Under the pieces are notes generated by a model, which was given only the letters and a program-made list of their open reading frames with translations, was not told the DNA's origin and ran no database searches. Positions 12,926 to 41,505 of a stretch of 64,000 bases of DNA are shown here, piece by piece. The stretch spans positions 6,398,167 through 6,462,166 of the forward strand of contig OZ024785.1 in assembly GCA_964017065.1 (NCBI GenBank), given 5' to 3'. The stretch's first letter is position 1. Every line of letters begins with the position of its first letter. Source of the DNA: Haliclona indistincta. Taxonomy: Eukaryota; Porifera; Demospongiae; Haplosclerida; Chalinidae. A program made the translations under genes and the position numbers.

Positions 12926-13080
12926 GTTGTCAGGGATGAGTGAAAGCACTTCTCTATGCTGTCATACAAAGCTAGAATTGGAGCCAGCAGTAACACGTAC
13001 ACTTCGTAAAAGGGCGGGGCTCAGAACGACGTCATATTACGCGTCAGTATTATCAGGGAGTTTTCTTTACCTCAGATAAT
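12926..13080. promoter_or_regulatory. Receptor C upstream region with GC box and CRE core
   Basis: AGGGCGGGGCTC (about 13011-13022) is followed by GACGTCAT (13028-13035). The equivalent upstream of G is at 48823-48844. The space to the MT relic is only ~150 bp here because MT exon 1 and its TATA region are missing. Confidence 0.5.
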
Positions 13081-13081
13081 T

Positions 13082-17334: not shown

Positions 17335-20300
17335 TCACTCTTCTTTACGCCATTTCTTTATGCAAATCAATACTGCTGCTTGTAGCACTACAGTCACTAC
17401 TAATATCAGAATGACTGCTATCAGTCCAACAACAACACCAACAAAGACACCAGTTGAGATATAACCTGAAGAAAATTCAGACAAAATTCAGGAACAGCAA
17501 ATGTTGCTATGATCTAACACTGTTATTACCTTCAAATCCTGTGAAGGAATATAAATCTGATACTGAAGCACTTCTACCAAATGGATTACTAGCACTGACT
17601 GTAAACCGATGTCGTCCTGATCGAGTGAAGGGAACAACAATCGTATAGTTCATTGGACCTGATGGGACACCACTCTGTATGTCTGATAATACTAGTACAG
17701 TACTGTTTTGTTCATCCATCACAGATACGTTGAAATACAGTAAAATATGTCCAGCAAACACTCTCACTGTCACTGTCAATAGTTGTATACCCACAGTAAC
17801 ATCAGTGATCATTGGTACTGATGGAACACCTGAGAACACACACACACACAGAATGTGTAGTGATCATACAGTCTCACTGACTCACCTGATGTAGCCAATA
17901 TGTAGTTGGTGGTTTGTCGTTCACTATTACCAAGCTCATTGGTAGCAGTGATAGTACAGGAGTAGTTCATTCCAGCTGTCACATTCTCTGGTCCAGTTGG
18001 TATCACAGCCATACCATCACCACACATGTTAGCACTACAGCTCCTGTCACTGGCTAGTCCACTACCACTACCCTCCTCCTCACTGCGACATGCCACAGCC
18101 ACACTAGTGAGAAGTGCTCCACCTGTGTGCCTGAAGTTCCAAGTTACCATGAGCTTTCCATTTGTGCTCACAAGATTGGTCGCCAAAAATTCAGGAGCTA
18201 GAGAATATTCAAGAATTGATATCTAAATCAAACCGATCAAAAGTGAGTTTCTCACCTCCTGCCATTGTCATGAAGGCTACTGTATTACTGGGTTGAATAC
18301 GAGCGACACCTTGCTCTATACAGGACATGTCAAGCTGTGGAGATACAGCTCTGACACTGGCAGTGTAGCTGGTGTTGGGTTTCAGTCCAGTCACAGTGAA
18401 GGTGTTGGTGTAGGATGGATCAGTACTGATGGCATTGAATGATCTAGTAACATTAATGAATGGTGGACTCATTGATACAAGCTCCACTAGAAACGCATTG
18501 AATGCTGGTACTCCACTAGTGAGTGGGTTCTGCCAGTAAAGAATAATAGAGGTTGAACTATCATCAGTCAAATTGAGAGCAAGGTTTCTAGGAGTAGTGG
18601 GTAAATCTGAAAATAGTATGAGATACTAGTTAGAACTCATAGTTAGTGTTGCCATATAATTAATTTTAATGAAGTTTCATCTACAAAAAATTGACTGGTA
18701 TAATGTAATTATAGCAGGTACTTTGCATCTTAGTGGTGTTAATTTTGATGAAAATCACCAATTTTTTTTTAATTCAACAAAATTTTCTCCTGCCAAATTA
18801 ATTACCCACTATAGATGACTTTGGTGTGAACTCTCACCTCGTTCATAAACGATGAAAACGTCGATATTACGCCCATTTCACTTAAATTTTGCTCCAGCTT
18901 GCTTACTGAGACTTGAGCAGGCCTGAGACGCCAACAGAGCAGTGATGCAACATAACCTATACCTATCGTAGGTCTAACTATTCCAGCCTAGTCTGTAGAG
19001 AGCTGTTTTCTGATTATAGCACAGCTTGATAGCCCCTCAGACCTGCTAAAATTTGTATTGTAGCCATTGGCGAACTCGGAGCTCTGACCCAACGGGGTGT
19101 GACTTAATGTACGTCATAATTTTGAACGAGGTGAGAGTTCACTCCGAAGTCATCTATACAGTAACTTACTAATAACACTCAGTGTGAAGACGTATGAATC
19201 AGATCCCAAGAAGTTGCTTGCTGTCACTCTGTAAACACCTGCATCTCCAAGACTGACATTTGATATATTAAGTGAGGTTGCTGATACATCTCCTTGGTAT
19301 GCTACACCATCTTTAGTCCAACTGAAGCTTTCTACAGGTTGTGCTTCTAACTTTAAGAGGAGTGAAAGATCTTCACCCTCTCCAACACAAGAACTGTTAA
19401 GACCATCAGTAAATTTAGGATAAACTATATAAAAAAATTTTTTAGTTTAAGGTATGTTTCGCATGGATATGCATGCAAATTTGTGTTATATTATAGTTAT
19501 AAGCAGAACTCGGTTTAAGTAATAATCAATGCTTGTACATGCATGCACCTTTACTGACACACTTCCATGCTTTGTTAGTAGATGCTTTGTTACTTGATAT
19601 CTCGTCAATTTTGTGACTGGAGTATTTCATTAACTCACATTGCACATTAATGGTGACTGCCATACTCCTGGTGACAATGTAGCGTGGAGCACTTCCAGAT
19701 CCAATAGAACGCTCAAGTGTGCAATTGTATACACCAGACTGACTCCGCATTATGTTAGTGTATGAATATATCACATTGTCAGTTGAAGTAGCTAGTGTAG
19801 TGGAACCAAAGGTCCATCTGGCATCATTTCCAGAAACAGCACCAGGACTAGGGTTGCAGGAGAGAGAACCATTGGTTCCTTCTACTACATTGATTGTGCC
19901 GTTGGGGTTAAGTACTGGATCATCAAAAACTGAAACAGAACAACGTAATTATCAGACAGTGATATATGTGTTCCGCGTATTTTAGGAATTTGCGCATTCT
20001 ATAGAATGCGTTGCGCTTTTTAGGAATTCCTAGATTGCCCGCCATTCTATAGAATGGCGGGCATTCTATAGAAAGCGCAACGCAGAATGCGCAGTCTACA
20101 GAAAGCGCAAGTGACTTGCTCATTCTGTAGAGGGCAAACACGCGGTGTTGTGTCTGAGAGCATTCCTACGCTAAGGTGCAGCGATTAAGTTAGCAACGAG
20201 CAGATTTCACAAAACCCTCGGCGTGTCATGCACATTGTGTAGTGTTAGGTCCTTGTTTGGAGCAGCTAGTGCTAGCTAATTAACGAGAAGACGGCAAAGT

Positions 20301-23300
20301 GCTGACCACAAGGGCGTGACCATGAACACGTGAGTAGGCAGCCATTGCTGTAGCGTAGGCTCTTTCCTAAAATTTCTACGCACCCTCATAGCTGTTCTGC
20401 AGTTTGGATGGAATCTACAAGTACATAGGTAGTCAACTATGGGCATTTTTGTAGTCAGAGAGGTCCAAGATAGCCGTCAAGGTGAGTCAGCCATAACTCA
20501 AGAATGAAAGCACTTTAGCAAAATCCACGAGTCTAATTGCAAGCCATTGCGGTGCTTATCATGTCATAACCTTACCAGCGCGTAAAAGTGATCCCTGAAC
20601 TCTGCAGCTCGATGGGATATGGACAGCGAATGACAAACCAAGTACCGTAACCCTCGCGCATGCGCCGAGGGTTAATAAATCCAGTCAGCGAGGCTTTCAA
20701 TGTAAGATCACCTGTGCTGACGATTATGGTAAACTACAGACAGACATAAACAGTATCTACAATTGCATCTCTGCGAGATCCTTAACTTTGAACGCTGAAA
20801 AGTGCAAGTATCTTGTCTGCTCGAAAAAATCATCTCCAACGCTGCCACCATTTGGATTACACTTAAATAATGAAGTGCTAGAAAGGGTACGGCAGTACCG
20901 TTATCTGGGTGTACTTGTCACTGAAAGATTGTCATGGAATGATCATATATCAAACATCTGTAAGAAGGCTAGGAAACTTATAGGCATGCTGTACAGACAA
21001 TTCTATGCGTGGGCAGACAAGAGCACTTTAAAGACTATTTACTTGACTTCAATTCGGCCACATCTAGAATATGCCTGTCAACTATGGGACCACCAGACAG
21101 CCTCTCAAATACAATCTCTTGAATCAGTACAGAAATTTGCTTGTAAGGTATGCCTAAAGAGATGGGATATGAGGTATACAGACATGCTAAATGAACTTGA
21201 CTTACCTCCATTAAAATTACATAGACAATATTTAAAATTAACCACTCTACATGGTATCTTGTACAATTACTCTTACTTTCCTGTAAATATATTTAACTTT
21301 AATAACTCACCTTATACTAGTAATCGTAATTTAAATCTTATTAAACCTATTGTACGTACAAATTATTTCTTACACTCCTTTGTTCCTAATTCTGTTGTTC
21401 TTTGGAATTCACTCCCTTTTTCTCTCCAATCGACTATTTCTATCTCTTCTTTTAAATATAATTTAGTTAAATTTCTTTCAGAACATGATTTGTATTAGCT
21501 TTTGCTATTTTCATGTTAAAGAGTTAAAAAAAAAAAAATAATAATAATAATCAATCAGTGCTGAACCATCGTTTCTTTTAGTCTCAACGTTGATTTTGCA
21601 GTTGTACATGTAGAGAGCGTAATTTCTAAAAGTTGACCATGCTGGAGAACAAAGTTGATACTCTAAATTTACAGTGATAGCACACAACTATAGACAAGAG
21701 TATATGCATGATTGTACTATCGAAATCAAAGGGATGTAGGGTTGTGAAATCTACCACTGGTTCACAATGTGAACTAACAAGGAACAAGCATGGAATGGTA
21801 ACACGATTAACTTGCTAACAGACCATAGATCCCTACATCAGTGGCTGTCAACAGCAACTAGCTGAACTAGCTATAGCCAACCACAGCAGCCACTGATGTA
21901 GGGATCTATGGTCTGTTAGCAAGTTAATCGTGTTACCATTCCATGCTTGTTCCTTGTTAGTTCACATTGTGAACCAGTGGTAGATTTCACAACCCTACAT
22001 CCCTTTGATTTCGATAGAAATCTTTTTAATTTACTTGTTTGTGTCCTTTTTTAGTGCAGTGCAGTTCATTGCACGTACTGAGCCGTCTTTGTTTCTACCA
22101 TTGGTTTAGTTTTTTCCAGCTGTTGACGGCTTTCTTTATTATTAAAAATTTTAAACTTGTAGCTAAAAATAATTGTTATGCTGTACATATCAGCTCGCCT
22201 ACGCATACATGACATGCATGAAGTGCATACGAGCCCCGCCCATACTAGTTTGTAGACCTGTACGGCGGTTATAATTATCTGGCAAGCGCAGAATGGTGAT
22301 CCTATGCTTCTTCGAAGACTCCAGACAGATATGTGTTCTCCGTGATCCATACGGCACGGAGATACTCAAACTAGTGCTTGGTCACGTGCGCTAACCACTG
22401 CTTGGTCACGTGCGTATTGCGCAATCACAATAATGGCGTCTAACACCAGAGGAGGTTGGAAGCAGAGGAGGTTGGCCACGCGTCATACTTACACGCACGA
22501 TCACATGACATTGAAATAGCAAAGAGCCCCGCCCACCGATGCTGCAGCATAGCTGCTGGCAGTCCAGCTACAGTCAGTGCTGTGCGAATGGAGACCAAAT
22601 GTACACGAGGCTGTCCACGGGTGATGTAGAATTGCTGCTAGCAGTGATTGAATGCTGTAGCCTTGACTGGCGGTAGGCTGTGCTCAATATGCTGTACGAC
22701 TGTTATAAGCGGTCCTACAATAATGTTGGCAAGCTCCAATGCTGTTTCAAATGCTCACAGCGTTCCTTCGGCGCTCATGGTCACCGTAGACCATCTTCTG
22801 CTTCTTCCCAATGTTTCACAGTGTGGCAACCAAAACGGCCAAGCCGAGCCAAGCCTCCTGAAATACGACCTTCTTTTGGTCGGTTAACAACTTCTTGAAC
22901 GCTTGCAAACAGTTTCGCTCTGTCCTGCACCTCCAACTAGTTGCAAATCAGCAAATTCATATAATATGAATAAATTCATGAGGTTGGAAAAGGTTGGAAA
23001 AAGTCTATTAATTTAAGTTATTCATGTTGGAATTACGTCCGGCCTGTGCGGTCACATGAACTCGGCCTACGCATTGCATACGTAGAAATGATGATCGATG
23101 ACGCGTGGCCAACCTCCTCTGGGTTGGAAGCATTAATATTCAGTCATGTGACTTGTGGCTTGTAAATTCTCTCCAAATCAAAATGTATGGCGAATCTTAG
23201 TTGTCAATTTTACGCTATTCTCTGGACAGAATTTAACGACTTTAGTATGAATCGAAAGCTCTTGCACAGCAGATTACAAATATGCGATCTACCCGATCCA

Positions 23301-26300
23301 ACCCAGGGGTTCCTGAGCTGCTATGGGCGAGAAAGTAGTGACGATTCTTAACTGTGGAAAACACTACAGTTATTGTTCGTGCAAGCAATCAGCTTATTGA
23401 CAAGCCTACTACAGACGTCCTGAAGCAAAATTTGGCGTTTAAAACGGCTAGGCTCCATTGTTGTCTGCAAAACCCAGTATACAGCTGACGAGACCTGGTC
23501 AGAGCTAGAACTAAGAAAGTTGCTTAAATTTAAGCTGTTTCACAGAAGAAAGATTCCTGAATCCAGCACAAGTGTGCTGTATACTGGAGTTGTGCTACTT
23601 CTTCCTAGATTTCACGACATACAAAGCACAGAAACTGGTGTGCAGTGCACTATGCAAATAGCTAAACCAATTATTCTAAGATCATATCTTTAAGTAAGAC
23701 CAGTAATCAAGCTCTACGCAATACCATTTTAGAAAGAATCCACGAATGAGTTCTAGTGCTGTATGCTAGCGCCATTGAGCCACGCCTCACGATGGAACGT
23801 TAGCTATGCTCATTCGAAATCACGTGCGCATAATAACATCCTACAATCACGTGCGCATACCAACCTCCTCTGGTCTAACACTTAGCTGACAATGGATCAC
23901 GATCAAGAAATCGCGGAATTTATACATAGCTCCGGCACGAACTCGCACGTCGTTCAGATTTCAATGTTACGCCCACTGCAGATCATGTTTATTCCAATTG
24001 GTTGGCAAAAGCTGCTTCAAGCTGCAATAACTGCGGCAAACAACGCTGTAGCGACAATCTGACTGCTGCTATCGTCTTTTCTACTATCCAGGAATCCATA
24101 AGACACTTTTTCAACTGACTGACGTCGGTTTTCGAAAAAGCTCCACTTTGCAACTCGGCGGCAAAGCACTGAACGCGCTTTTGAAAAAATCGACGTTTAA
24201 CAGTCTTCTGGATAGTAGAAACGACGATAGCAGCAGTCAGATTGTCGCTACAGCATTGTTTGCCGCAGTTATTGCAGCTTGAAGCAGCCTTTGCCAACCA
24301 ATTGGAATAAACATGATCTGCAGTGGGCGTAACATTGAAATCTGAACGATGTGCGAGTTCGCACCGGAGCTAAGAAAGAAGAAGATGACGAGACTCGATT
24401 TTCACCGTTTCCAGGTTCGTCACTTTAGAAACAATTTCGAGCGATCTCCTTGCTACTGTAAGATGGGGCAACGCCAGATAGCGGATGTAAGTGTCTTTGG
24501 ACGTATAAAATTCACCACCAGGCGAAATATCAGCGTTTGAATGCTATTACATTGTATGTAGCCGCCATCTTGTTTTTCCGTTCAACCCTACATAGGGAGG
24601 CACTACCGTGCCTCCCTAATAATGACACACTTTTGCAGTGATGATACACAACTAGAATGATTTTTGCTTGAGTTGTCACTCTCACACCATTAAGTAATCT
24701 ATAGCGATTAACTGTCATTTTTACAAGAAGGTGGAGCTACAGTGTTAGCATGTCGCATGATAGTGGTCAGGGAGAACTATATGTACAATCGTAAACCAAG
24801 ACTGGACAGCAATGGGATTGACTATGGTGTGTTCACTATCTTGGTAATTTATGCACGGCAGCTGATCTAGCTGTACATGTATCATTACTTTTTTCACCAT
24901 GTAGTATGGACTGTACAAGATTTGTGATGCTGACCATGATTTCAAAACAGTATGTGAACAAAATTACCACTATTAAAGATATCTTATGCTTTTTTTAGGC
25001 TGACATGCCACAAATACGATGGTGGGACTGGCTAGCACTAATTATCACAGACTGTGCCAATATCTTGTATGAGTTGGCTACATTGCTGTGTGTTTTGTTT
25101 AGTACTATCAAAATAGGTCAAACCACAAGGTAAACACATGCCTTCAGCACTGAATAGTTGTGTGTAATAGCGGTTTTCCAAAAGTACTCATCTACAACAA
25201 TTACTCAGATTATTATGTGCTCAACCATAACAGCTAGGGCTGTAAATGAAGACTTGTCATCAATTGTGTGGCCTAGCTATGCTAATGCTATTGATGATAA
25301 GGTACATAGCTGCAAAGACATTATCATCATATCGATCTTGTGATGTTAAAGCAGTGTACATGCAGGAGCAATTTAAAACTTACTCCCTGTACACTAAAGA
25401 CTTGCAGTTCCATGCTTTGTGAAATTCACATGAACATTTTAGGAGCGAAGAGATCTTGAACGGTGCGTGTTTAATTATAATTTTATTTCTTATTCTGTGT
25501 ATAGCTAATGTACAAACTTGATGAAGAGGAGTCGAGAAAACTGATAAAATAACGATGAGAAAGCATTTTCGTTTGAGCCATGACATATTCATAATTTGTG
25601 TTAAAAATTAATGTTTTCACACAGTCTGTGGTGGGTGCTATGAGGAAGATTAACCCTGGAAGAAGCTGTGAGGAAATTGAACTAGCTTTTGACCACTTAA
25701 CGTTACATGTACAGTACTACAGCTACAAACAGCTATACCCATTTATTATTATTTAAAGTTCTACCCATCTTTATTATTAATTTTAAAGCTATAGCTCAGG
25801 AGTACATTTCAGTATTTGTTATTTAAAGTCATACTCATGTCGTTTTGGTGGTGACACAGAATTGCATGCACAAGGCAAAATTCGGTTCGTTACTTATTTT
25901 GCACTAAAGACCTCGCGCGCTTACTGGATTTACTAAACGCTCAGCGACGCCCTTTGAGTGAGTTACTACAGAATGAGCAAGTCACTTGCGCTTTGTGTAG
26001 ACTGCGCATTCTATAGAATGCGTTGCGCTTGCTATAGAATGCCTAGAAAGCGCAACGCATTCTATAGAATGCGCAAATTCCTAGAATGCGCGGAACATAT
26101 GCAGGTATACATGTAAGCTTACCTAACTCACTAAAACGAATGTCCTCTTGATTCGTACCTGCAGTACAGCCAATAATAGTATCCGCAGTATTACTCAATA
26201 CATCTCGAGGAACAGGTATCATCAGTGTATACTCAGGCTCACTCCCACTAGGTGGTAGTATTGTTACACCAGAGCTTGAGTTAGTGAGTGGTGCTACACT

Positions 26301-26553
26301 GACGCCTGAGCCAGCTACCAAGATGGTAAAAGTGTTCTCTTCACATCGGAGGCAGGTAAAAATATCATAGACAATTGCATGGCTCTGATCAAAACCACCC
26401 CCAGGAAAATCGAAGTTCTGCTGACACTGGCAGTTACCTGTATCGAACAAAAAGTAGCCTAGCACTGCTGCACAAGAGATAGGACATACCTTGAGCTATG
26501 ACTAGCGCGAGAATGACCAGTCGCAGCGAGGACAAGTGTAGTCCAAGTGCCAT
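17335..26553 (-). CDS. Receptor E: three Ig-type and three FN3 domains, TM, short tail
   Basis: Eight exons join to 672 residues: signal 26553-26490, first domain 26437-26123, Ig2 19929-19639, Ig3 19424-19170, FN3-1 18606-18256, FN3-2 18197-17886, FN3-3 17829-17530, TM 17465-17335. All junctions are phase 1. Residues 1-21 are the signal (MALGLHLSSLRL..). Ig2 shows SLSC, Trp and SGVYNC. Ig3 (224-308) shows the I-set pattern SFSWTKDG and DAGVY. FN3-1 has the Pro/Trp/TGLKPNTSY core. The span is about 635-665, followed by KKWRKEE and stop. The tail has no tyrosine. Intron 2 is 6.2 kb because of a transposon. Gene F has almost the same ectodomain with a signalling tail. The promoter upstream of about 26640 has been replaced by a GPCR fragment, so E lacks the CRE seen at F. 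Role in adhesion or self/non-self recognition is inference. Confidence 0.8.
18813..19156. mobile_element. MITE with ~35-bp TIRs, TA target site
   Basis: Both ends carry ATAGATGACTT-type inverted repeats continuing into ACTCTCACCTCGTTCA. The paralogous intron of gene G (47447-47470) has the empty site CCACTATACAGTAAC, proving the insertion at TA. The right half of the same MITE remains in gene F (39548-39648), so it predates the E/F duplication. Confidence 0.8.
20690..21550 (+). mobile_element. 5'-truncated non-LTR retrotransposon (LINE), RT C-terminal part
   Basis: An open frame from about 20701 to 21498 encodes the end of a reverse transcriptase. It starts just before the catalytic box, here CADD (20713-20724) instead of YADD, then continues with the conserved NAEKCKY, YRYLGVLV, ISNICKKARK and SIRPHLEYACQLWD segments typical of CR1/Jockey-like LINEs. 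The 3' end is an A-rich run followed by ATA repeats (21527-21552). The missing 5' part is the usual result of incomplete target-primed reverse transcription. A related but more decayed copy is at 41880-43025. Confidence 0.85.
21717..22026. mobile_element. Palindromic MITE family M1, copy 1
   Basis: Two ~130-bp arms in inverted orientation: CTATCGAAATCAAAGGGATG ... mirrored by CATCCCTTTGATTTCGATAG, both including the ACCATAGATCCCTACATCAG run. The left end is slightly trimmed. Copies 2-4 are at 27629-28030, 38263-38659 and 45947-46356. Confidence 0.85.
22447..23872. mobile_element. Outer nested DNA transposon, 9-bp TSD GTCTAACAC
   Basis: Ends are CAGAGGAGGTTGG and CCAACCTCCTCTG. The flanks 22438-22446 and 23873-23881 are identical 9-mers (GTCTAACAC), and Hp copies elsewhere read through the site (39069-39076 and 45513-45520, reverse). 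A 9-bp duplication suggests a Mutator-like superfamily; no transposase is present. Its own left end was hit by a second copy of the same family. Confidence 0.8.
22463..23121. mobile_element. Inner nested DNA transposon, same family, 9-bp TSD GGTTGGAAG
   Basis: 659 bp with 24-bp perfect inverted ends (CAGAGGAGGTTGGCCACGCG plus four more bases). Flanking 9-mers GGTTGGAAG at 22454-22462 and 23122-23130 are identical. It inserted 7 bp inside the left end of its sister element. Confidence 0.85.
23929..24370. mobile_element. Foldback element, TA flanks
   Basis: GCTCCGG at the left and CCGGAGC at the right start ~170-bp arms that pair almost throughout, with a short centre near 24130. It is flanked by TA on both sides and is absent from the matching place in Hp copies 2, 4 and 5. 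Confidence 0.8.
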
Positions 26554-26599
26554 GTGAATAAACAAAGTAAGTATGTCATAGGACAGGCAGCAGAGATAC

Positions 26600-27610
26600 G
26601 CAGAGATTCTGTTAACAGCAGAGATTCTGATAACAGCAAAGACTCTGATGCAGCGCTTTGCGGTTAGGTTGTCTAGTTTTGATACAGTATACACAATGTA
26701 CCACAAACAGGCACCCACGCATTGTGAATATCCAATACTGTATCAAAACCATAAGAGAAACATGAACCCTGCTAGTAATGCTACTAGTAGTATCTTGTCT
26801 TGCAAGCATCCTTTGATGACATTGGCACTTTATTCTTATTCGAAAGTGGCTGATTTCTCTTCTGTTGATTGATTTTAAGCCTAATAACGACATAACTTGA
26901 AGAGATAAAGATACAGGCATTAAATACCATAATAAGTATGATTGGAACAAGAAATGCTCCAAAGAACACACCAATATCACTGATGAAGTAACTATGAAAG
27001 ACAATAATAATGTAAATAACAAAATGTGCACAATCACTATGTTATTGACTCACAATCCTCTAGTTGTGTTGGACTGTGTGATGTAGTAGTCAGGATTGAT
27101 GCTAACAGATATCACTACTGGTAGCAGAGGACAAGCTATTAATTTAAGGATAAAATTTAAGATGTGAGTAAAATATGCTGCTCACCCAAGCATACAATCG
27201 AAGTAATCACGATGTATAGCGTTGTAGATTTTTTGAACACAATTACAAGCTTTTGAAACAGTAAGACAGCTTCAGCACCCATCCACATCCAGGCTACCAG
27301 GATGAGGTAGTGGAGGAGCACACCCACAGTGATACAACCAGCTCTGTTCTCAGTACGATCAATACCAGCCACAAACACTATCAACATGAGCATCAGTGAC
27401 ACGGCTAACTGAACATGGAATTTACTGATGTCTTTCTGACGAAGATTCCTACAAGATGTCAAGTATAATAAGAATTTACATATACCTGGATTAAACTTAC
27501 TTAAAGACCAGGTAAGTTAACAAAAGTAATATCAAGCCCAGATTACACCAACATAGGTGGTGATATCCAATGCCAAAATATATTCTTTAGGTAAGCCTGC
27601 TGGACTGGCT
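26600..27610 (-). pseudogene. Adhesion-type (class B-like) GPCR 7TM fragment
   Basis: Minus-strand exons: TM1 part about 27609-27501, TM2-TM4 27448-27186, extracellular loop 2 27135-27054, TM5 from 26991. The TM2-TM4 exon has KFHVQLAVSLML, an extracellular Cys (RAGC), LLHYLILVAWMWMGAEA and a TM4-like stretch, the pattern of adhesion/secretin receptors. TM5 reads GVFFGAFLVPIILIMVFNAC. After it the frame stops (26784); a TM6-like LLVALLAGFMFLLW lies in another frame and then meets TGA. No GPS motif or ectodomain lies upstream, where an M1 MITE begins. So this is a truncated, frameshifted fragment. It sits directly upstream of receptor E and has displaced E's normal promoter. Confidence 0.7.
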
Positions 27611-27628
27611 CCTTGTACTCTAATAGAT

Positions 27629-28030: not shown

Positions 28031-28042
28031 TGTGAATTATGG

Positions 28043-29207: not shown

Positions 29208-29249
<42 letters not shown>

Positions 29250-29557: not shown

Positions 29558-29559
29558 GT

Positions 29560-30280: not shown

Positions 30281-30282
30281 GA

Positions 30283-31992
30283 CCGACGTATAGACACACA
30301 CTTCCTCTGCCTGCATTGCAAATATGCAGCTCATATCTGCTTCTTTGTCTACTGTGGAGACGAAGAAAGTGGGTAGCCGAAAACATTGATGTTCGGCAAA
30401 AGCAATCTATTATCTGGCACCAGTCCTAGTGACTGATAGACGAATAGGGCGGGATTGCAAGTCAGTACTGCAAACACCTTTATCCATCAGCATTACAACG
30501 AGCTACAATTGAAAAGCTCTCGTCTTGCCGTCCGGGTAATTTTCTTTTCCAAAGACCCCGGGGTCGAGCAATCTATGTTCGGCAACTCATGATATTGTTT
30601 CAGAGCAATTTATGCTCAAAGAAAACACGATTGCGATACAGAAACACGTCGGCTGAGTAGAGCCATCTCAGGTCTATTACAATCACCAAAATTCAGTAAC
30701 CCTGCGTTCGTCTCTTGATCGCACAAGCTGCAAACAGCCAAAATAGTGGGCGTGGCTTCCAAGGAGTAACCCAGTGTTTGTAAAACAAAGAATAAACCGA
30801 GCATTCCAGAAGTTAAATTTGATTCTAAGCCTCTTTGTCTGCACTCGCAAAGTAGTTTAGCGCTGATCAGTGACTGCATTAGTGATGGATAGTAATTGTA
30901 TAGAGAAGTCCTCAAATCAGCAAGCACTGTCCATATCCATCACGAGTGCAGTCATTGATCAGCGCTAAACTACTTTGCGAGTGCAGACAAAGAGGCTTAG
31001 AATCAAATTTAACTTCTGGAATGCTCGGTTTATTCTTTGTTTTACAAACACTGGGTTACTCCTTGGAAGCCACGCCTACTATTTTGGTTGTTTGCAGCTT
31101 GTGCAATCAAGAGACGAACGCAGGGTTACCGAATTTTGGTGATTGTAATAGACATGAGATGGCTCTACTCAGCCGACGTGTTTCTGTATCGCAATCGTGT
31201 TTTCTTTGAGCATAAATTGCACTGAAACAATATCATGAGTTGTACCATAGGAAGCCTTATTTTCAAGGGCACCGCCAGTGGTATATTTCAGATATACCAT
31301 GGAAAGTCACATGATTTCCTGTGGAATAACTAGATATTCCAAGGTTTATTATGTGATTTCCTGTGGTATATCTGGATATTCCACGGGAAGTCACATGACT
31401 CCAACTGGGCAAAAAAGATCATCTACCTTCCAGAGAGAAAAATAGGAAGGGGTGAGAGTTGCGAGTCAACCTCACCAGTAAACTATAAAGAGTGTGCAAT
31501 CCGCCCTTATTTATCCTATAGAAACCTACAGACATCAGTGGGCATTGTAGTTGCCATGATACAAGTCAGTTATACCATGCCTACCTGTGGTGTATCATGA
31601 ATACACTCAGCAATACCCCCTCGGGCTACGCCCTCGGGATTAATAGTTATTGCTTCGTGTATTCGTGATACACCACCCACGGGCAGGCATGGTATTAACG
31701 TATACTTGCCGAACATAGATTGCTCGACCCCGGGGTCTTTGGAAAAGAAAATTACCCGATGGCAAGACGAGAGCTTTTCAATTGTAGCTCGTTGTAATGC
31801 TGATGGATAAAGGTGTTTGCAGTACTGACTTGCAATCCCGCCCTATTCGTCTATCAGTCACTAGGACTGGTGCCAGACAATAGATTGCTTTTGCCGAACA
31901 TCAATGTTTTCGGCTACCCACTTTCTTCGTCTCCAAAGAAGCAGATACGAGCTGCATATTTGCAATGCAGGCAGAGGAAGTGTGTGTCTACA
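30283..31992. mobile_element. Giant palindrome (foldback element) with ~640-bp arms
   Basis: The left arm (30283-30900) and right arm (30935-31992) are inverted copies, for instance GACCCCGGGGTC at about 30556-30567 and 31727-31738, and the ATGTTCGGCAAAAGCAATCT segment mirrored near 31888. The right arm is interrupted by a 467-bp insertion (31240-31706). Both arms carry mirrored open frames of 87-103 codons, which probably reflect one ancestral sequence rather than two genes. Confidence 0.8.
31240..31706. mobile_element. 467-bp insertion inside the palindrome
   Basis: The mirrored arm at 30575-30600 has no gap here, so the insert is defined exactly. It contains its own hairpin: ACCATGCCTACCTGTGGTGT near 31576-31595 pairs with the GGGCAGGCATGGT segment near 31681-31693, around a CTCGGGCTACGCCCTCGGG core. 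Class unknown. Confidence 0.6.
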
Positions 31993-31999
31993 AGCGAAA

Positions 32000-33000
32000 C
32001 GCGCATAGTGACACAAGATTGTCACAAAATCCCGGCTTTCATTACTACTGTATAGTCTAGCTTAGTCGCTGTTGTTAAAGGCCTCTATGCTGCAGTCATT
32101 TACAGGTGCAGTAATGTCTGCATAATGAAATTAATGTTGCATTGCTGGATGTTATTTCCGGGTAATAATTATTATTATATTGTGGGTTATTTCCCAATAG
32201 CGTATTATTTGAAAAGGTACATGTACTGAAATAAAACCGAAATTGTACATGTTGTACAATTGTGTGATGACAAAATAAAACTGAGCTATGACAAAAGGGA
32301 AAAATATAGTCTAGCTACTTGCAGTTAGAACAGAACCATTTTCGTAACAACCTCTGAGGATTTCCAATACACTTAAAATTAATGGTACCACTCCTTGCAT
32401 CGACTGCATTCCACCATATCCTCATCATAAGAGTCTGGTAGCAAGCATGGACAAAAGATAGGTATGGAGCACTTCTTTGTGGTGCTCATCTTGATGTTAT
32501 TATTCGCCTGTGCTAATGGGAATGGGAAAGGTTACAGCCAGCTCTTTGTCTTTAACTGCATCACGGTAGATTATTGCAAACTGTATTTCAATAGTAGAAG
32601 GCAAGTCATCATCTGAATTACTTACCATTTTACCATTTTGTCTCTTGAACCTTCCTTTTCAACCTATTACAATGTAAAATAATAAAAACCCAATTATCAT
32701 GTAAATGCCTAAAATTAGTTACTTTCTATTTGCACTTTGATGTTGATTCATCCTGCCAGCTATCATTCACTGTTGCCTATGTGAATTATTATGTGAATGA
32801 AAAGATAAAAATGACTTGACAAGCATGCTTACATGCAAACCTAAGCCATCACACTTTATTGATGGACTTGACATAAGAAATGTGTCATCAGTAGTACCGT
32901 CTGTTTCTAATAGTATGATTATTATAATTAATTTTGATAATACTTGCTCTTTCAAACTTCTGTTCACTGGCAATAGGAGGAGAAGGTACACGCAGTTCAT
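32000..33000. other. AT-rich stretch without assigned gene
   Basis: Only a short inverted repeat around 32145-32205 (TTATTTCCGGGTAATAAT / ATTGTGGGTTATTTCC-like) was noticed. No exon could be supported. Confidence 0.4.
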
Positions 33001-33017
33001 CCATAATTGTTCTCTTT

Positions 33018-33141
33018 AGCCTCCGGGTCTTTTGTTAGAGTTAGTGGTGCATTATCCAATGATGCTGACTGCTTGATCTTGCATACGATTTCTTCTGGAC
33101 TGCTGCAAGAGATGTACTGGCTATGGGCAAGAACATGCTAC
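33018..33141 (+). CDS. Possible single exon of an unknown gene
   Basis: An open block from an acceptor (TTCTCTTTAG) to a donor (CAAGGTACGAG) encodes about 41 residues beginning SGSFVRVSGALSNDADC and ending WLWARTCYK. I found no neighbouring exons to join. Low confidence; it could be a remnant. Confidence 0.2.
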
Positions 33142-33259
33142 AAGGTACGAGTCACGCCCTCCCACCCTTATGCGTCCCGCATTTTAGTATGCGGGACGGG
33201 ACATCCCGCCTGAGTCCCGTCCCGTCCCGTGTTTTAGTAACAACCGTGACAGAACAAGT

Positions 33260-33938
33260 AAAAAAGTTTTAATAAAAACTAACTAAAACGTGTAGGGATG
33301 ACGCTTGCAAAAGTAAAGGAACAAGATGGGATGATGCTTGCAAAGTAAAGTAACAAGATGGGATGATGCTTGCAAAAGTAGAGAAACAAGATGGGATGAT
33401 GCTTGCAAAAGTGAAGGAACAAGATGGGATGATGCTTGCAAATGTAAAAGTCCCAAGTATCCCTACATCAGCGGCTTAAAGGAGGACGCAGTCCGATGAA
33501 GTAATTGACGGTTGTAAATAACTAGATGTATCTGTACATGTGTTTAGGAGGACGCAGTCCGATAAAGTAGTTGACAGTTGTAAATAACTAAAGGTATTAT
33601 GTTTGGAGGACGCAGCCCGATGAAGTAATTGACAGTTGTAAATAACTAGAGGTATCTGTGTTTAGGAGGACGCAGTCCGATTAAGCAATTGACGGTTGTA
33701 AAAGGTATAGGAAGAGGATTCTGCATTTGTCAGTTTCATGTCGTCACAGCAAGCCGCTGATGTAGGGATACTTGGGACTTTTACATTTGCAAGCATCATC
33801 CCATCTTGTTCCTTCACTTTTGCAAGCATCATCCCATCTTGTTCCTTTACTTTTGCAAGCATCATCCCATCTTGTTCCTTTACTTTTGCAGCGTCATCCC
33901 TACACTTTTTAGTTTTTTTTATTAAAACTGTTTTTAAA
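33260..33938. mobile_element. Foldback element built of tandem repeats, next to an MT start codon
   Basis: Each end has AGTTTTAATAAAAACT-like sequence and GTGTAGGGATGACGC. The left side holds about five ~36-bp repeats (GATGGGATGATGCTTGCAAA), the right side the same repeats inverted (33775-33895), and the middle four ~60-bp repeats containing AGGACGCAGTCCGAT (33483-33690). It ends 5 bp before the ATG of the MT at 33944. Confidence 0.75.
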
Positions 33939-33943
33939 TTAAT

Positions 33944-34406
33944 ATGGCCGAGTCTATTGCTACTGCTGCTATTAACACAGTCACTTGCAAGTGTGGTAAG
34001 ATGAGGACCATGCACCTGTGTCACACAGCAATGCAACTATCTTCTTCACAGACAATTGTTCCTGTGGTTCAGACTGCAAGTGTGCTGAGGGATGCTGTAC
34101 CTGTGTGTGCAGGGGATGTGATGGGAGCCAGTGTAGCTGTGGTGATGACTGTAGATGTGGCAAATTAAGGTTGCTGTGAAACAGCTGTCAGCAAGAAAAC
34201 CAGTAAGTGATACCAGGGCTCAAACTGAATGGTTGTTTCAATCAAATTATTCTTCTCCAGCAAACTGTCAGTGTGGTCCAAGCTGCAAGTGTTTTAGCTG
34301 TGATGACAACTCCTGCTGTCAGTGCACCTGTGATGGAGCCAGTTGCTCATGTGACAAGGACAAGTGCAGATGTAACAAAGATTGCAGCTGCACAAGAATC
34401 GCCTGA
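33944..34406 (+). pseudogene. Metallothionein-like gene, frameshifted in exon 2
   Basis: Exon 1 from ATG 33944 (MAESIATAAINTVTCKC) ends at a GTAAGA donor; exon 2 runs from about 34052 to 34200; exon 3 from about 34261 to 34406, ending TRIA. A four-base insertion (TTAA near 34163) shifts exon 2 into KLRLL and TGA, so the third exon would be lost. Exon 2 also lacks the VGQQC segment of the 16290 gene. The foldback at 33260-33938 has replaced its normal upstream region, so no TATA box of the usual kind remains. Confidence 0.7.
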
Positions 34407-34439
34407 ATTACCTTTATGATTGATATAGCTATAGAGGAA

Positions 34440-35080
34440 GGTCATTGTTATGTATGATGGACATATCTAATAATAATTGTGTCTACCTAAGTCTTCAAAC
34501 CCTACGACATCAAAATAATGATTAGTAGCTAAAACTATAACTATTTCGACAGTAATAAGCTCCAGAACTATGAACGTGGTGCACTGACTTTGATAAACAA
34601 GCTCATGTTGACTCTACACATACCTCTTCAACAAATCAATACACTGTGTTTGTTCGGTTTTAAGATAGACAATCAACAGTACAATACCAACTGTGAGCAA
34701 TATTAAGCTCGGTACATAACTAAAATTTCGTTAAGCATGGAAATTAATTCAAATACACCTGTACGTAACAATGCGGGCAAATTCAAATCTTATTATCAAC
34801 TCCTATTATTATTCTCCTATTCTCTTATTACTATAAAGCTCTTGTGCAATAACTTTTCACTGTCAGTTTGTTAAATAAACTGCAGTGTAGTCAAACCAAA
34901 CTTAATTATTTTAGTGCACATAAAAATGCATTACATACAGGCGAAAATGTAACAGCATGTAATTAAAAATGTTATGCATTGAGCCTTGACCACTAATAAT
35001 ACAGGACCACTAATTTCTGTAATAAAAAATACAGTTAGTATACATGTAAAATTAATAGAAAAATGGAGAAAATTTTGTTG
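34440..35080. repeat. Duplicated spacer between MT and receptor tail
   Basis: Same spacer as 190-560, 52490-53100 and 61740-62170. No exon seen. Confidence 0.6.
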
Positions 35081-35085
35081 GTATA

Positions 35086-38000
35086 CTAGATATTTTCATA
35101 AAACTGATCCGTTTCCTCTGTAGTTGTTCCATAAGCTACATTATCATTCACTGCAATGGACTGTCTATGAGGAGCTGACTGTGTCTGCAGTACTGAAGAA
35201 TAGGCAACATTGTCCTTCAGTTCAATAGGCTGAAGAAAACCTCCCAGTACTCTACAAGACTCATTCTGAACTGTCTGGAGTTTATCAGGTTCACCTAAAA
35301 AAACAAAATCAATGCTGTTTCGACTAGTCATGTTAGTATTATTATAACAGTGCACTAACACGTTAAGTTGTTTTCATACAACAATTGTAACTCTTCGATG
35401 TAATGCGTACTATTGTAACATGCACTCAAAGTGCATTACATTATACGTACTGAGTGCATGTTGTAGCACGTATAGCATAAAAGCTTATATGCACTCAAAG
35501 TAAGGACTCATTAAACCTCACTCTTCTTACGCCGTTTCTTTTTGCAAATCAACACTGCTGCTGGTAGCACTACTAATATCAGAATGACTGCTATCAGTCC
35601 AACAACAGCACCAACAGAGACACCAACAAAGACACCAGTTGAGATATAACCTGCATGAAGAAAATTTAGACAAAGTTCAGGGACAGCAGATGTTGCTATG
35701 ATCATTACCTTCAAATCCTGTGAAAGAAAATAAATCTGATACTGAAGCACTTCTACCAAATGGATTACTAGCACTGACTGTAAACCGATGTCGTCCTGAT
35801 TGAGTAAAGGGAACAGCAATCGTATAGTTCATTGGACCTGATGAGACACCAGTCTGTGTGTCTGATAATACTAGTACAACACTGTTTTGTTCATTCATCA
35901 CAGATACGTTAAAACACAGTGAAGTATGTCCAGCAAACACTCTCACTGTCACTGTGAATAGTTGTATACCCACAGTAACATCAGTGATCATTGGTACTGA
36001 TGGAACACCTGAGAACACACACACACAGAATGTGAAGTGATCATACAGTCTCACTGACTCACCTGATGTAGCCAATATGTAGTTGGTGGTTTGTCGTTCA
36101 CTATTACCAAGCTCATTGGTAGCAGTGATAGTACAGGAGTAGTTCATTCCAGCAGTCACATTCTCTGGTCCAGTTGGTATCACAGCCATACCATCACCAC
36201 ACATGTTAGCACTACAGCTCATGTCACTGGCTAGTCCACTACCACTACCCTCCTCCTCACTGCGACATGACACAGCCACACTAGTGAGAAGTGCTCCACC
36301 TGTGTGCCTGAAGTTCCAAGTTACCACGAGCTTTCCATTTGTGCTCACAAGATTGGTCGCCAAAAATTCAGGAGCTAGAGAATATTCAAGAATTGATATC
36401 TAAATCAAACCGATCAAAAGTGAGTTTCTCACCTCCTGCCATTGTCATGAAGGCTACTGTATTACTGGGTTGAATACGAGCGACACCTTGCTCTATACAG
36501 GACATGTCAAGCTGTGGAGATACAGCTCTGACACTGGCAGTGTAGCTGGTGTTGGGTTTCAGTCCAGTCACAGCGAAGGTGTTGGTGTAGGATGGATCAG
36601 TACTGATGGCATTGAATGATCTAGTAACATTAATGAATGGTGGACTCATTGATACAAGCTCCACTAGAAATGCATTGAATGCTGGTACTCCACTAGTGAG
36701 TGGGTTCTGCCAGTAAAGAATAATAGAGGTAGAACTATCATCAGTCAAATTGAGAGCAAGGTTTCTAGGAGTAGCGGGTAAATCTGAAAATATTATGAGA
36801 TACTAGTTAGAACTCATAGTTAGTGTTGCCATAATTAATTTTAATGAAGTTTCATCTACAAAAATTGACTGGTATAATGTAATTATGCCTCGGTGGGCTG
36901 AGCCACGAGGCATACAGTAATGCGCGTATCAATGAAATGCCCCACTCCCCCCCACCCGGGGTAGGGTGGGATTTGTCAAAATTCGTGTGTCAAAAGCCCC
37001 ACCCCTGGGGCAGTGTAACTACGCAGCCGGTTCACAGTTTGCCTACACGATGACACACTACGCAAGTTTGTTGCTGGCAACAGTTGTGCAAAACAAATTT
37101 GCCTAGTGAATCATCATTTATGGCAAACTGTAGACCGGCTTCGAATTTACTCTGCCCCAGGGGTGGGGCTTTTGACACACGAATTTTGACAAATCCCCCA
37201 CCCTACCCGGGAGGGGGGGAGTGGGGCATTTCATTGATACGCGCATAATCGTGCGTACGCGTGTCTGTGTGTCTGTCTGTCCGCTCTAGCTCTGAAAGAC
37301 GGCGAAGAATCCGCTGGTGGTAAGTGCAATATAGACAGAACACGTTAATAGCTCGAACTTGATGGTCTTAGATTTTTTAATTTAAAGCTTTGTTCGTGAG
37401 TTATGGCGTGATTTGCTTACTTTGTTTACCGTTGCTGGCGATCTGGACTTCTCCGAAGTCGAATGTGTCCATCGTTAACTGGCTAGCAGATTGTAGGTTT
37501 GATCTGGACTACGGGATAGCGTGGCGGGTCCGAACAAAAATCAGCAAAACCGAAAAAAGCTAGCTGCTACAAGCATGGCTAGCCTCGTCCCCAGGCTCTC
37601 TGTTCCGTCAGAGAGCCTGGTCTCTAATCTCACGTGAGCGCACCCAAAAAAGTGCAAATATTAATGAGCGTGGGTGTAATAAACCGCACGCCCACGATGC
37701 TTGATGTCGGTCTCGTGCTAGGGCATAGTTACAGCGTAGCGTAGCGGCGTCTCTTTGTGCTGGACATCGGAAAAGCTTCCTTGATGAAGCCTTTGACGAC
37801 TAGGTCATTGTACGTACGGTGAGGAAAGTGTAGCTCGATATCGTCCAGCGTCTGGTACTTTACCCGTTTCGACGGAGTAGGAACATCCCCAGTAGCTGCT
37901 TCCTCATAGTGGCTCTTTAGCCATTTAGATTCATCTGACGGCTCCGCGGCCATCCCGAACGTGATGCTACAGACCTTGATCGCCTCTGACAGCAAGACTG

Positions 38001-41000
38001 TGACGAACGCTACGCATGTGCGTGGGCAGGTTGGGTCGAGAGCGTTGATCGTGCCCACGCACACTAATCACCTGTCTACCACCTGTCTACCCCACGTGAG
38101 ATTAGAGACCAGGCTCCCTGACGGAACAAAATTCCGAGAGGGGTGGAGCCTGGGGACGAGGCTAAAGCATGGCTGCTTTGTGCACGCCCATCTAACTATT
38201 ACACTGTGGTAGCATACTATTGGCTTCTGTTATTTTTGCCAGCTTGTATGACCATTGTACTTTACAAGAAATTAAAAAGATTTCTATCGAAATCAAAAGG
38301 ATGTAGTGATGAAGAAATCTACCACTGGTTCACAATGTAAACCAACAAGGAACAAGCATAGAATGGTAACACGATTGACTTGCTAACAGACCATAGATCC
38401 CTACATCAGTGGCTGCTGTGGCCAGACTATAGCTATAGTTAAGCTATTTACTGTTGACTGACACTTTGAATAGAATTCAGCTTGTGACAAAATATTGATC
38501 TTATGTACAGCCACTGATGTAGGGATCTATGGTCTGTTAGCAAGTCAATCGTGTTACCATTCTATGCTTGTTCCTTGTTGGTTTACATTGTGAACCAGTG
38601 GTAGATTTCTTCATCACTACATCCTTTTGATTTCGATAGAAATCTTTTTAATTTCTTGTTCGTGTCCTTTTTTCTTTTTAGTGAAGTGCAGTTCAATATC
38701 ATGCATGTACGGAGAAGTCTTTGTTTCCACCATTAGTTCAGTATTCCTGTTGTTGATGGCTTTTCTTAAACTTGTAGCTAAAATTGTTAAGCTGTACGTA
38801 TCAGGTCTGCCTATTCGCCTACGCATGCATGCAGTGCATACGAGCCCCGCCCACACTTGTTTGTAGACCTATACGGCGGTTATAATTATCTGGCAAGTGC
38901 AGAACGGCGATCCTACACGAGCTTACCGTCCTTCGAAGACTCCAGACAAATGCCGGGTGTGTGTTCTCCGTGATAGTGATCCATACGGCGCAGCGATACT
39001 TTGGCTCCTTGGTCACGTGCGCTCCCATTGCTTGGTCACGTGCGTATTGCGCAATCACAATAATGACGTCTAACACTAAGCCGACAATGAATCACGATTC
39101 ACGATCGAGAAATCGCGGAACATAGATCGCCGTTACGCTAAAAACAAAGCTCAAAAGGCACATGCCAGGAGAATTTCACGACTGTTCGTGGATGTTAAGG
39201 TCTCGGTACTGCTCGCGTAAAGGCGCTAGGCGAGTGGAAGAAAGAAAGAAGAAAGAAGAAAACGAAACTCGATTTTCACCGTTTCCAGGTTCGTCACTTT
39301 AGTAACAATTTCGAGCAATCTCCTTGCTACCGTTAGATGGGGCAACGCCAGAGAGCAGATCTAAGTGTCTAAAGACGTATAAAATTCAACACCAGGCGAA
39401 ATATCAGCGTTTGAACGCTAATACATTGTATGTAGCCGCCATCTTGTTTTTCCGTTCAACCCTACATAGGGAGTCACTACCGTGCCTCCCTAATAAATCT
39501 GTTACAATCATCATCTGCTGATGGACTAGTTGTGTGTTGTATTGCAGCTATTGGCGAACTCGGAGCTCTGACCCAACGGGGTGAAACTTAATGTACGTCA
39601 TAATTGATTTTGAACGAGGTGAGAGTTCGCTCCGAAGTCATCTATACAGTAACTTACTAATAACACTCAGTGTGAAGACGTATGAATCAGATCCCAAGAA
39701 ATTGCTTGCTGTCACACTGTAAATACCAGCATCTCCAAGACTGACATTTGATATATTAAGTGAGGTTGCTGATACATCTCCTTGGTAGGCTACACCATCT
39801 TTAGTCCAACTGAAGCTTTCTACAGCAGGTTGTGCTTCTATGTTTAAGAGCAGAGAAAGATTTTCACCCTCTCCAACACAAGAACTGTTAAGCCCATCAG
39901 TAAATTTAGGAGAAACTAAATAAATAAAATTTCAAATTTATATTTAAGTTTAAGGTGGCGGGATACCGTTTTAATGAGATTCATGACTTTAAAAATGGCT
40001 ATTTCTTTTTTAGCCAAGTCTATCTGTGCAGACGGATTTGCAGTGTGCGCTTTGTTTGTCTATAGATAGGCATCGATAATAGCAAGTTTCAGCCACGTAG
40101 TGTTCGCCATCACGGAACGACGAGCTCGCCATGTGAAGACTAAACACGATCGAGTTTTTACAATTTTTCTTTAGTTGTGTGAAAAGTACGAACCTAAAAC
40201 TGCTCCTGCAAGCTCATCTTCCATTCGTGGAGGAGCCTGCGTATCGAATTCGCCGAGCAATGCTCGTACGCGATACTACAGCTGCGTACTCTGTACATAC
40301 TCTGTACACTGATGTACTGTCTGGCAGTACTGACGTAGCTGCAGTATCACGTACGAGCATTGCTCGGCGAAATCGATACGCAGGCTCCTCCACGAATGGA
40401 AGATGCGCTTGCAGGAGCAGTTTTAGCTTCGTACTTTTCACACAACTAAAGAAAAATTGTAAAAACTCGATCAAGTCGTGTTTAGTCTTCACATGGCGAG
40501 TTCGTCGTTCCGTGATGGCGAACACTACGTGGCTGAAACTTGCTAATATCGATGCCTATCTATAGACAAACAAAGCGCACACTGCAAATCCGTCTGCACA
40601 GATAGACTTGGCTAAAAAAGAAATAGCCATTTGTAAAGTCATGAATCTCATTAAAACGGTAACAAATTTGTGTTATATGGTTATAAGCACTGAGAACTCG
40701 GTTTAAGCAACAATCAATGCATTAACTCACATTGCACATTAATGGTGACTACAGTGGTCCTGGTGACAATGTAGCGTGGAGCACTTCCAGATCCAATAGA
40801 ATGCTCAAGTGTGCAATTGTATACACCAGACTGACTCCGCATTATGTTAGTGTATGAATATATTACACCATCAGTTGAAGTAGCTAGTGTAGTGGAACCA
40901 AAGGTCCATCTGGCATCCGTACTAGAAACAGTACCAGGACTGGGCTTGCAGGAGAGAGAACCATTGGTTCCTTCTACTACATTGATTGTGCTGTTGGGAT

Positions 41001-41505
41001 TAAGTACTGGGTCATCAAATACTGAAACAGAACAACGTAATTATCAGACAGTGATATATGTAGGTATAGGCTTACCTAACTCAGAAAAGCGAATGTCCTC
41101 TTGTTTCGCGCCTGTAGTACAGCCAATAATAGTATCCACAGTATTACTCAATACATCTCGAGGAACAGGTATCATCAGTGTATACTGTGTCTCACTCCCA
41201 CTAGGTGGTAGTATTGTTACACCAGAGGTTGAGTTAGTGAGTAGTGCTGGACTGACGCCTGAGCCAGTTACCAAGATGGTAAAAGTGTTCTCTTCACATC
41301 TGATGCAGGTAAAAGTATCATAGACAATAGCATGGCTCTGATCAAAACCACCCCCAGGAAAAAAAAATTTCTGCTGACACTGGCAGTCACCTGTAGCGAA
41401 GAAAAGTAGCCTAGCACTGCTGCACAAGAGATAGGACATACCTTGAGCTATGACTAGCACGAGAATGACCAGTCGCAGCGAGGACAAGTGTAGTCCAAGC
41501 GCCAT
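35086..41505 (-). CDS. Receptor F: three Ig-type and three FN3 domains, TM, tyrosine-motif tail
   Basis: Nine exons join to 739 residues: signal 41505-41442, first domain 41390-41076, Ig2 41021-40731, Ig3 39915-39658, FN3-1 36783-36433, FN3-2 36374-36063, FN3-3 36008-35709, TM 35650-35531, tail 35294-35086. The ectodomain is nearly that of E. The span is about 637-666, followed by CKKKRR. The tail exon adds VAYSSV (Y702, an ITIM match), VAYGTT (Y725) and a terminal YENI (Y736, a YxN Grb2-type SH2 site). If the donor after 35531 (GTAAGA) is not used, the frame stops at 35511 with a KKSEV end, giving a tail-less form. Introns hold several transposons (36886-39493 and 39964-40661). Inhibitory or adaptor signalling is inferred from the motifs. 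The upstream region has a TGACGTCA core at 41748-41755. Confidence 0.8.
36920..37245. mobile_element. Foldback MITE, TAA duplication
   Basis: Ends TGCGCGTATCAATGAAATGC and its mirror, ~110-bp arms rich in CCCCAC/GTGGGG, flanked by TAA on both sides (36917-36919, 37246-37248). A 3-bp TAA target fits PIF/Harbinger-type MITEs. Confidence 0.75.
37580..38164. mobile_element. 9-bp-TSD transposon carrying an internal reading frame
   Basis: Inverted ends TAGCCTCGTCCCCAGGCTC; identical 9-mers AAGCATGGC at 37571-37579 and 38165-38173. The ends continue into a second shared block (AGAGACCAGGCTC / GAGCCTGGTCTCT). Between the ends lies a 111-codon frame (37729-38064, minus). A 9-bp duplication suggests a Mutator-like mover. 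Confidence 0.8.
37729..38064 (-). CDS. ORF inside transposon, weakly RFX-like
   Basis: 111 codons. The middle part, from about residue 46, reads WLKSHYEEAATGDVP, then ELHFPHRTYNDL and FIKEAFPMSSTKRRR. The order Trp-Leu-x2-His-Tyr-Glu-x-Ala-x-Gly, then Phe-Ile-x3-Phe-Pro and a basic TKRRR, recalls the winged-helix DNA-binding domain of RFX factors, though much is different. There is no intron sign. It may be a captured host exon or a transposon-encoded DNA-binding protein. Start codon choice is uncertain: a second Met lies directly before the AAEPSDES segment. Confidence 0.4.
   Translation of the reverse strand: MCVGTINALDPTCPRTCVAFVTVLLSEAIKVCSITFGMAAEPSDESKWLKSHYEEAATGDVPTPSKRVKYQTLDDIELHFPHRTYNDLVVKGFIKEAFPMSSTKRRRYATL
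38263..38659. mobile_element. Palindromic MITE family M1, copy 3
   Basis: Ends ACAAGAAATTAAAAAGATTT and mirror, with the shared GACCATAGATCCCTACATCA arms. Directly joined to Hp copy 4. Confidence 0.85.
38660..39493 (+). mobile_element. Element Hp, copy 4
   Basis: Uninterrupted copy, about 830 bp, from the junction with M1 to the CTAA hairpin end. It contains the short GAAAGAAAG tract (39238-39260) that expanded in copy 2, and two CTTGGTCACGTGCG repeats. No long frame, so non-autonomous. Confidence 0.75.
39548..39648. mobile_element. Right half of the TA-site MITE seen at 18813
   Basis: It matches 19063-19156, including the GAGGTGAGAGTTC and GTCATCTATAC end next to the Ig3 exon donor. Its left half is missing, cut off by sequence that follows Hp copy 4. 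Confidence 0.75.
39964..40661. mobile_element. Foldback element with ~330-bp arms in receptor F intron
   Basis: TACCGTTTTAATGAGATTCA at the left is mirrored at the right; arms pair to a centre near 40310. Both arms contain matching frames on opposite strands. The introns of E (19440-19500) and G (47750-47830) lack it. Confidence 0.8.

Follow-up and report, generated by a model that had tools for sequence, protein, structure and literature searches.

Receptor genes E and F

The window analysed here, a stretch of 64,000 nucleotides (nt) at C3:6398167-6462166 (contig 3 of a 144-Mb genome in 46 contigs), lies within a large cluster of receptor genes. Two of them, E and F, were rebuilt from the minus strand and share one predicted ectodomain plan while differing behind the membrane, F continuing into an exon with tyrosine motifs and E ending without one. 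An earlier, sequence-only reading of this DNA had seen in E and F a set of paired receptors with near-identical ectodomains and different tails; the common plan, with a tyrosine tail in one gene and none in the other, is borne out by our analysis, while the idea of a private pair is not.

With predicted splicing, F encodes 739 amino acids from its ATG to a single terminal stop. Its eight introns, like the seven of E, have GT-AG ends and are in phase 1 throughout, and all exons of both genes lie on the minus strand. The signal-peptide exon of F (41442..41505) is followed by the first ectodomain exon, 'Ig1' (41076..41390), by the immunoglobulin (Ig) exons Ig2 (40731..41021; Pfam Ig_2, 3e-08) and Ig3 (39658..39915; Pfam I-set, 1.1e-10), and by three exons of presumed fibronectin type III (FNIII) kind, FN1 (36433..36783; Pfam fn3, 1e-09 in the spliced protein), FN2 (36063..36374) and FN3 (35709..36008). 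The membrane exon (35531..35650) ends at a presumed phase-1 donor, GGC/GTAAGA, and its predicted in-frame join to the 209-nt tail exon (35086..35294) opens a frame that carries VAYSSV, VAYGTT and YENI and runs to its own stop, as the earlier reading had proposed.

The spliced model of E (672 amino acids, also predicted) reads from ATG to a single terminal stop with no internal stop or frameshift. Its signal-peptide exon (26490..26553; ATG, phase-1 donor) matches F at 62 of 64 nt (96.9%). The first ectodomain exon (26123..26437) is open and 92.1% identical to that of F, Ig2 (19639..19929) is 92.8% identical, and Ig3 (19170..19424), in frame and one codon shorter, 94.2%. FN1 (18256..18606) and FN2 (17886..18197) are closer at 98.9% and 98.7%; FN3 (17530..17829) stands at 94.7% to F and 96.3% to a third gene, G. 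Over the ectodomain the two genes are 95.4% identical, and the claim that they agree almost base for base is thus too strong, the shared exons being 92-99% identical. The membrane exon of E (17335..17465) passes a presumed tail donor altered to GGC/GTAAAG and reads through to KKWRKEE and a stop; the predicted protein ends in ICIKKWRKEE, lacks any tyrosine beyond the membrane and has no charged residue in its span, the only polar ones being threonine and glutamine. In these respects the earlier description of E stands.

The intron between Ig1 and Ig2 is 54 nt long in F; its counterpart in E extends over 6.2 kb and contains insertions. Inside it, at 20599-21495 on the plus strand, lies a long open frame with a weak reverse-transcriptase match below the cut-off. 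Just upstream of the start of E, 27516-27160 on the minus strand encodes a secretin/adhesion-type seven-transmembrane segment (PF00002, 2.7e-12) that may belong to another or a broken gene.

The ectodomain had been described as three Ig-type and three FN3 domains. Pfam recognises Ig2, Ig3 and FN1 of F, and the predicted fold of FN2 resembles FNIII domains (mean predicted local distance difference test score, pLDDT, 68.8), with no Foldseek match at E <= 0.001; the first module and FN3 lack a Pfam match above the cut-off. For FN3 there is a weak PKD match below it. The first module found no Pfam match above the cut-off in any of the 18 copies scanned, that of E included, and its predicted fold is of low confidence (pLDDT 48), so that 'Ig-type' is unproven for this module. 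Matches of the ectodomain to solved structures are those of generic Ig/FN3 proteins (Robo, contactin, NCAM, titin), and Pfam recognised neither a kinase nor a TIR domain in the F model. Searched against 5.8 billion predicted proteins, the full F protein had no match at E <= 0.001 among the 7,995 scored candidates sharing most words. For the read-through FN2-FN3 frame, 22 of 844 candidates were 64-99% identical, all of them unnamed 'ena' entries and uninformative on the breadth of the family.

A cluster of tailed and tail-less relatives

E and F belong to a cluster of about 0.33 Mb (cluster 1, C3:6.23-6.56 Mb) with 47 first-ectodomain exons or fragments; tail exons lie at 48 places in the genome, spread over contigs 3, 5, 6 and 8. 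Both counts were made after merging split search rows. The recurrence of the receptor plan in more than 40 paralogous exons of the same genome places it beyond chance. The 44 membrane exons of the cluster fall into type 1, to which E and F belong (14), type 2 (17) and type 3 (13). A tail exon was found within 3 kb after 12 of the 14 type 1 exons, after 6 of the 17 of type 2 and after none of the 13 of type 3, so that membrane exons for which no tail exon was found form the majority (26/44); the assignment rests on search matches at a distance of at most 3 kb, by which strongly diverged tails would be missed, and some of the genes are broken. Seven of the 44 have a stop inside the match. The third type is represented in the window by the membrane exon of gene C (10635..10859, minus strand), which has an open end without tyrosine.

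Relatives occur elsewhere on the same contig. A second region, C3:7.61-7.88 Mb, contains 24 tail exons behind at least two kinds of receptor: in the first kind FN2 is about 40-45% identical to that of F (two copies read), and relatives of the E/F type have an FN3 exon 74-88% identical at seven places. Between the two regions, at C3:6.80-6.93 Mb, there are relatives of the type 2 membrane exon.

Between the receptor genes of the window, on the plus strand, lie cysteine-rich frames that look metallothionein-like by eye (9184-9426, 13010-13216, 16291-16757, 48805-49032, 52164-52445 and 61420-61713). They are divergent from the receptor that follows and sit close to its 5' end; a joined sample of them gave no Pfam match. 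Long simple repeats at 6610-7338 and 55780-56195 read as KKER/FLSF and QSVS runs, and an inverted repeat at 30583-31242 (309-nt arms, 97% complementary, 42 nt apart) is likely a mobile-element remnant.

Probable loss of the tail exon from E

The alignment of E and F stops at 17217 (35416 in F) and restarts at 16766 (34407 in F). Between these points lie 1,008 nt in F, among them the tail exon, and in E a replacement of 450 nt (16767..17216, minus strand). Among the sequences compared, the 450-nt segment had a single full-length match, in an E-like copy at C3:6311792-6309961 that is 98% identical to the 3' half of E and its flank over 1.8 kb and is also tail-less; in this copy FN3 is frameshifted, and Ig3 and FN1 were not found there. 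A search with the consensus tail through the 1.3 kb after E (17340-16000) gave nothing better than E 0.8. We also rejected a distant tail: further downstream within the window, the first one is the broken tail exon of gene A, about 16 kb off and past other genes.

Tailed type 1 genes carry the presumed donor GGC/GTAAGR in the membrane exon, which, joined to the acceptor, would give R-EPDK in phase 1 (predicted splicing). The change of G to A at position +5 of this donor is confined, among the 14 type 1 membrane exons, to E and the copy at C3:6311298. The KEE before the stop of E would be intron sequence, and g6314, g6319, G, g6529 and g6556 would end alike if unspliced; the short end of E thus matches the predicted product of an unspliced relative, except that in E a tail exon to which the donor could be joined is missing.

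Of the 12 tails behind type 1 membrane exons, eight are open to their own stop and four are interrupted, and the two tail-less members are E and its decayed copy. This distribution makes presence of the tail the likely ancestral state, and the simplest history is one in which the tail was probably lost once, before the segmental duplication that made the E-like copy. The other two tail exons of the window, in the paralogues G (53109..53307) and A (780..951; membrane exon of type 2), are broken, both on the minus strand and both losing the frame past AAYSSV. A tailed relative at C3:6556653-6556859 has cysteine for the second tyrosine and retains the third and fourth.

Closeness of E and F within the family

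Exon by exon, closeness to E was compared among the members whose sequence was read, and F is equalled or nearly equalled by others in Ig1, Ig2, Ig3, FN3 and the membrane exon. At the DNA level F is nominally the closest to E in Ig1 (92.1%, against 91.5% for G and 91.4% for a further member); in Ig2 it follows g6289 (94.1%) and G (93.4%) at 93.1%, and in Ig3 it follows g6314 (94.5%) at 94.2%. At the protein level the Ig1 of F shares 88% of its residues with two other copies and 86% with that of E. From 18635 to 17805, by contrast, E and F are 97-100% identical in windows of 120 columns, with at least one other member equal to them in three of the seven windows; in the window over the intron between FN1 and FN2 they are 100% identical and stand at 81-85% to five other members. 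The FN1-FN2 block is, among these sequences, the sole apparently E/F-specific stretch, and it would be accounted for if a tailed gene had exchanged sequence with a tail-less one. With other members as close or nearly so outside this block, and with most membrane exons of the cluster lacking a nearby tail exon, E and F do not form a private pair. Replacement-to-silent ratios of single exons were too noisy between E and F for positive selection to show.

The tail exon as a shared cassette

When tails of cluster 1 are set against those of the first kind of receptor in the second region (two of each), a stretch of 185 nt is 96-98% identical, while the remainder of the compared 10-kb pieces cannot be aligned except for an 84-nt patch in FN1. 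Silent-site differences between cluster 1 and the main group of the second region are 0.08-0.09 in the tail (9 versus 16 copies) and 0.57-0.66 in FN2 (one copy versus five). Since selection on the protein alone does not keep silent sites alike, we infer conversion or exon copying, by which the tail exon would have become a shared, homogenised cassette across diverged receptor groups.

The cassette is not uniform. In a variant group of five tails the first 29 codons are shared with the other groups (silent differences 0.05-0.10), whereas the second half differs at 0.60 and may be of other origin. A receptor of this group (one compared) differs from cluster 1 at silent sites by 0.13-0.18 in Ig1 and 0.18-0.27 in FN2; the tail core of the group, at 0.07-0.10, is thus just moderately closer than the neighbouring exons, and the exon looks like a mosaic. 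The tail core of F is an outlier, with silent differences of 0.16-0.18.

Thirty-two of the 48 tails were aligned, the others being eight interrupted or partial ones and eight more that were left out. Their tyrosines are kept in 27/32, 31/32, 32/32 and 31/31 from the first to the fourth, and the ratio of replacement to silent differences per site (pN/pS) between groups is 0.41-0.54, from pooled pairs that are non-independent; both figures speak for constraint on the tail.

Discussion

We put the probability at roughly one half that the tailed receptors of this family signal through SH2 proteins and that E is a likely tail-less competitor. The tail tyrosines would be phosphorylated and then bound by SH2 proteins, with SHP2-like phosphatases as candidate readers. 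E, a predicted surface protein that keeps the binding domains of the family without the signal, would act as a decoy competing with its tailed relatives, or serve as a mere anchor. SHP binding had been considered in the sequence-only reading, and SHP2-like phosphatases are indeed encoded in the same genome: two adjacent tandem SH2-SH2-PTP genes at C9:7649661-7653885, in single frames of 572 and 581 amino acids. Of these, only the first was compared with solved structures, and its residues 1-528 of 564 match PTPN11 at E 1.9e-181. Together with them the genome has 90 SH2 domain matches, and the two phosphatases are plausible readers of the tail.

An immunoreceptor tyrosine-based inhibitory motif (ITIM) is defined as [IVLS]xYxx[LVI], and an immunoreceptor tyrosine-based activation motif (ITAM) as YxxL/I, 6-12 residues and a second YxxL/I. 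An ITAM is rejected on spacing, the consensus being YGVL, 15 residues and YSSV in the alignment as read by eye. The ITIM label suits the VAYSSV of F, which is atypical for the family, and fails for the family consensus AAYSSV at position -2; a strict ITIM of any kind occurs in 6 of the 32 aligned tails.

Several observations weigh against the signalling and competitor roles proposed here. The usual tail sequence is DNAAYSSV, with alanine at -2 of the second tyrosine in 30 of 32 tails and hence outside the strict ITIM, and its DNxAY context would, we presume, also suit PTB or sorting adaptors. F itself has lost the first tyrosine and shows a pN/pS of 1.06 against its cluster 1 relatives, and with replacement differences about as frequent as silent ones its standing as a maintained inhibitory receptor is weakened. 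E may be poorly expressed because of its enlarged Ig1-Ig2 intron, and, tail erosion being common (the four interrupted type 1 tails and the cysteine at C3:6556653), it may represent one step of decay.

These last points lead to the main rival, which we regard as possible but clearly less probable: E would be a duplicate turning pseudogene, with no decoy role, whose tail was removed by a chance deletion as genes of the cluster arose and died in quick succession. The frequency of broken tails, the inserted intron and the frameshift already present in the sister copy of its 3' half are what such a route would leave behind. Yet the full frame of E is open, and apart from the tail donor every donor in it is intact. 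Among the complete exons compared, insertions and deletions always come in multiples of three, save in the FN3 of the decayed copy, and there is no excess of replacements in E, whose private changes are nine replacement and six silent (nine and eight in F; at P 0.13 the silent excess falls short of significance). The E ectodomain shows no visible decay.

A role in adhesion or self-recognition, in which DNxAY would serve sorting or PTB-type docking instead of SH2-mediated inhibition and the tail-less forms would be simple anchors, seems to us unlikely, if still worth weighing. It accords with the conservation of the repeated DNxAY context, asparagine at -3 being kept in 32/32 tails at the second tyrosine and in 31/32 at the third, and with structure matches that include Robo, contactin and NCAM besides titin. 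The SHP2-like genes, the number of SH2 matches and the recurrence of YxxV and YxxL cores among the tails argue the other way.

It is more doubtful still that E and F compete as a genuine pair of the vertebrate kind, held alike by gene conversion and facing one common ligand. Their likeness over 18635-17805, and above all in the intron where five other members reach at most 85%, would fit a conversion in which one gene has a tail and the other none, of the sort reported for SIGLEC11/SIGLEC16 (PMC5701461); it does not reach Ig1-Ig3, the part likeliest to bind a ligand, where E and F are no clear closest pair. Signalling by E through a separate tyrosine-bearing partner, after the manner of short-tailed activating receptors, is very improbable, since its span has no charged residue, even if tail-less membrane exons are as frequent (26/44) as though they were functional.

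Beyond the competitor role of E, it is tempting to consider a wider and more tentative view, to which we give distinctly less credence: a germline complex for recognition whose single phosphotyrosine tail cassette would be copied by conversion among receptor groups on four contigs and deleted from single genes, with heads and tails re-sorted by recombination, amounting to an economy of inhibitory and decoy receptors at the base of the animals. That the DNA comes from an early animal is likely, as the earlier reading had supposed: contig 10 carries silicatein-like exons, one of the five read having serine at the position of the catalytic cysteine of cathepsins, which is consistent with a demosponge.

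The family invites comparison with several known systems. Like the vertebrate paired receptors (KIR, LILR, SIRP, Siglec, CEACAM), it combines tandem clusters of Ig-type genes, like ectodomains with unlike tails, and signs of sequence exchange between members. It departs from them in that the strict ITIM is not the rule, the span of E is uncharged, no clear one-to-one pair exists, FN3 domains are added and the solved-structure matches are generic Ig/FN3 ones.

The Alr family of Hydractinia, with 41 genes and ITAM/ITIM motifs (PMC11999971, PMC12065747), offers a large cluster of Ig-type receptors with tyrosine motifs in an early-branching animal; likened by description, the family reported here differs in its FN3 domains, its single shared tail-exon cassette and a tail-less form that probably arose through exon loss. 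Among the fester co-receptors of Botryllus (53 loci, with ITIM or hemITAM tails and a sushi domain between Ig domains; PMC12065747), members of a cluster likewise differ in their tail tyrosine motifs, but Pfam gave no sushi match here. Ig-bearing receptors described from sponges comprise receptor tyrosine kinases, adhesion molecules and Ig-TIR receptors (PMC2248247, PMC11999971, PMC6208332); they share Ig domains with F, which has a short tyrosine tail and no kinase or TIR domain. Among the titles and abstract openings of the literature matches listed, which cover few subscription journals, none speaks of clustered sponge receptors that bear tyrosine tails, and none of four terms looked for occurs in an article on demosponge grafting (PMC5450542). 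According to a review, motifs of the ITIM/ITAM type are present in putative allorecognition receptors of animals ranging from cnidarians to mammals, while those put forward for sponges, cnidarians and ascidians have no kinship with one another (PMC12065747).

Taken together, the cluster with its tailed genes and the tail-less E is likely an early-animal parallel to the inhibitory and decoy immune receptors of vertebrates. The homogenised tail exon would be the part most surprising to a specialist, for it suggests concerted evolution of a signalling tail among receptors that have otherwise diverged widely. If the genome is that of a sponge, the locus offers concrete receptors, tails and SHP2-like candidate readers with which to ask whether recognition controlled by phosphotyrosine predates the split of the sponges from other animals.

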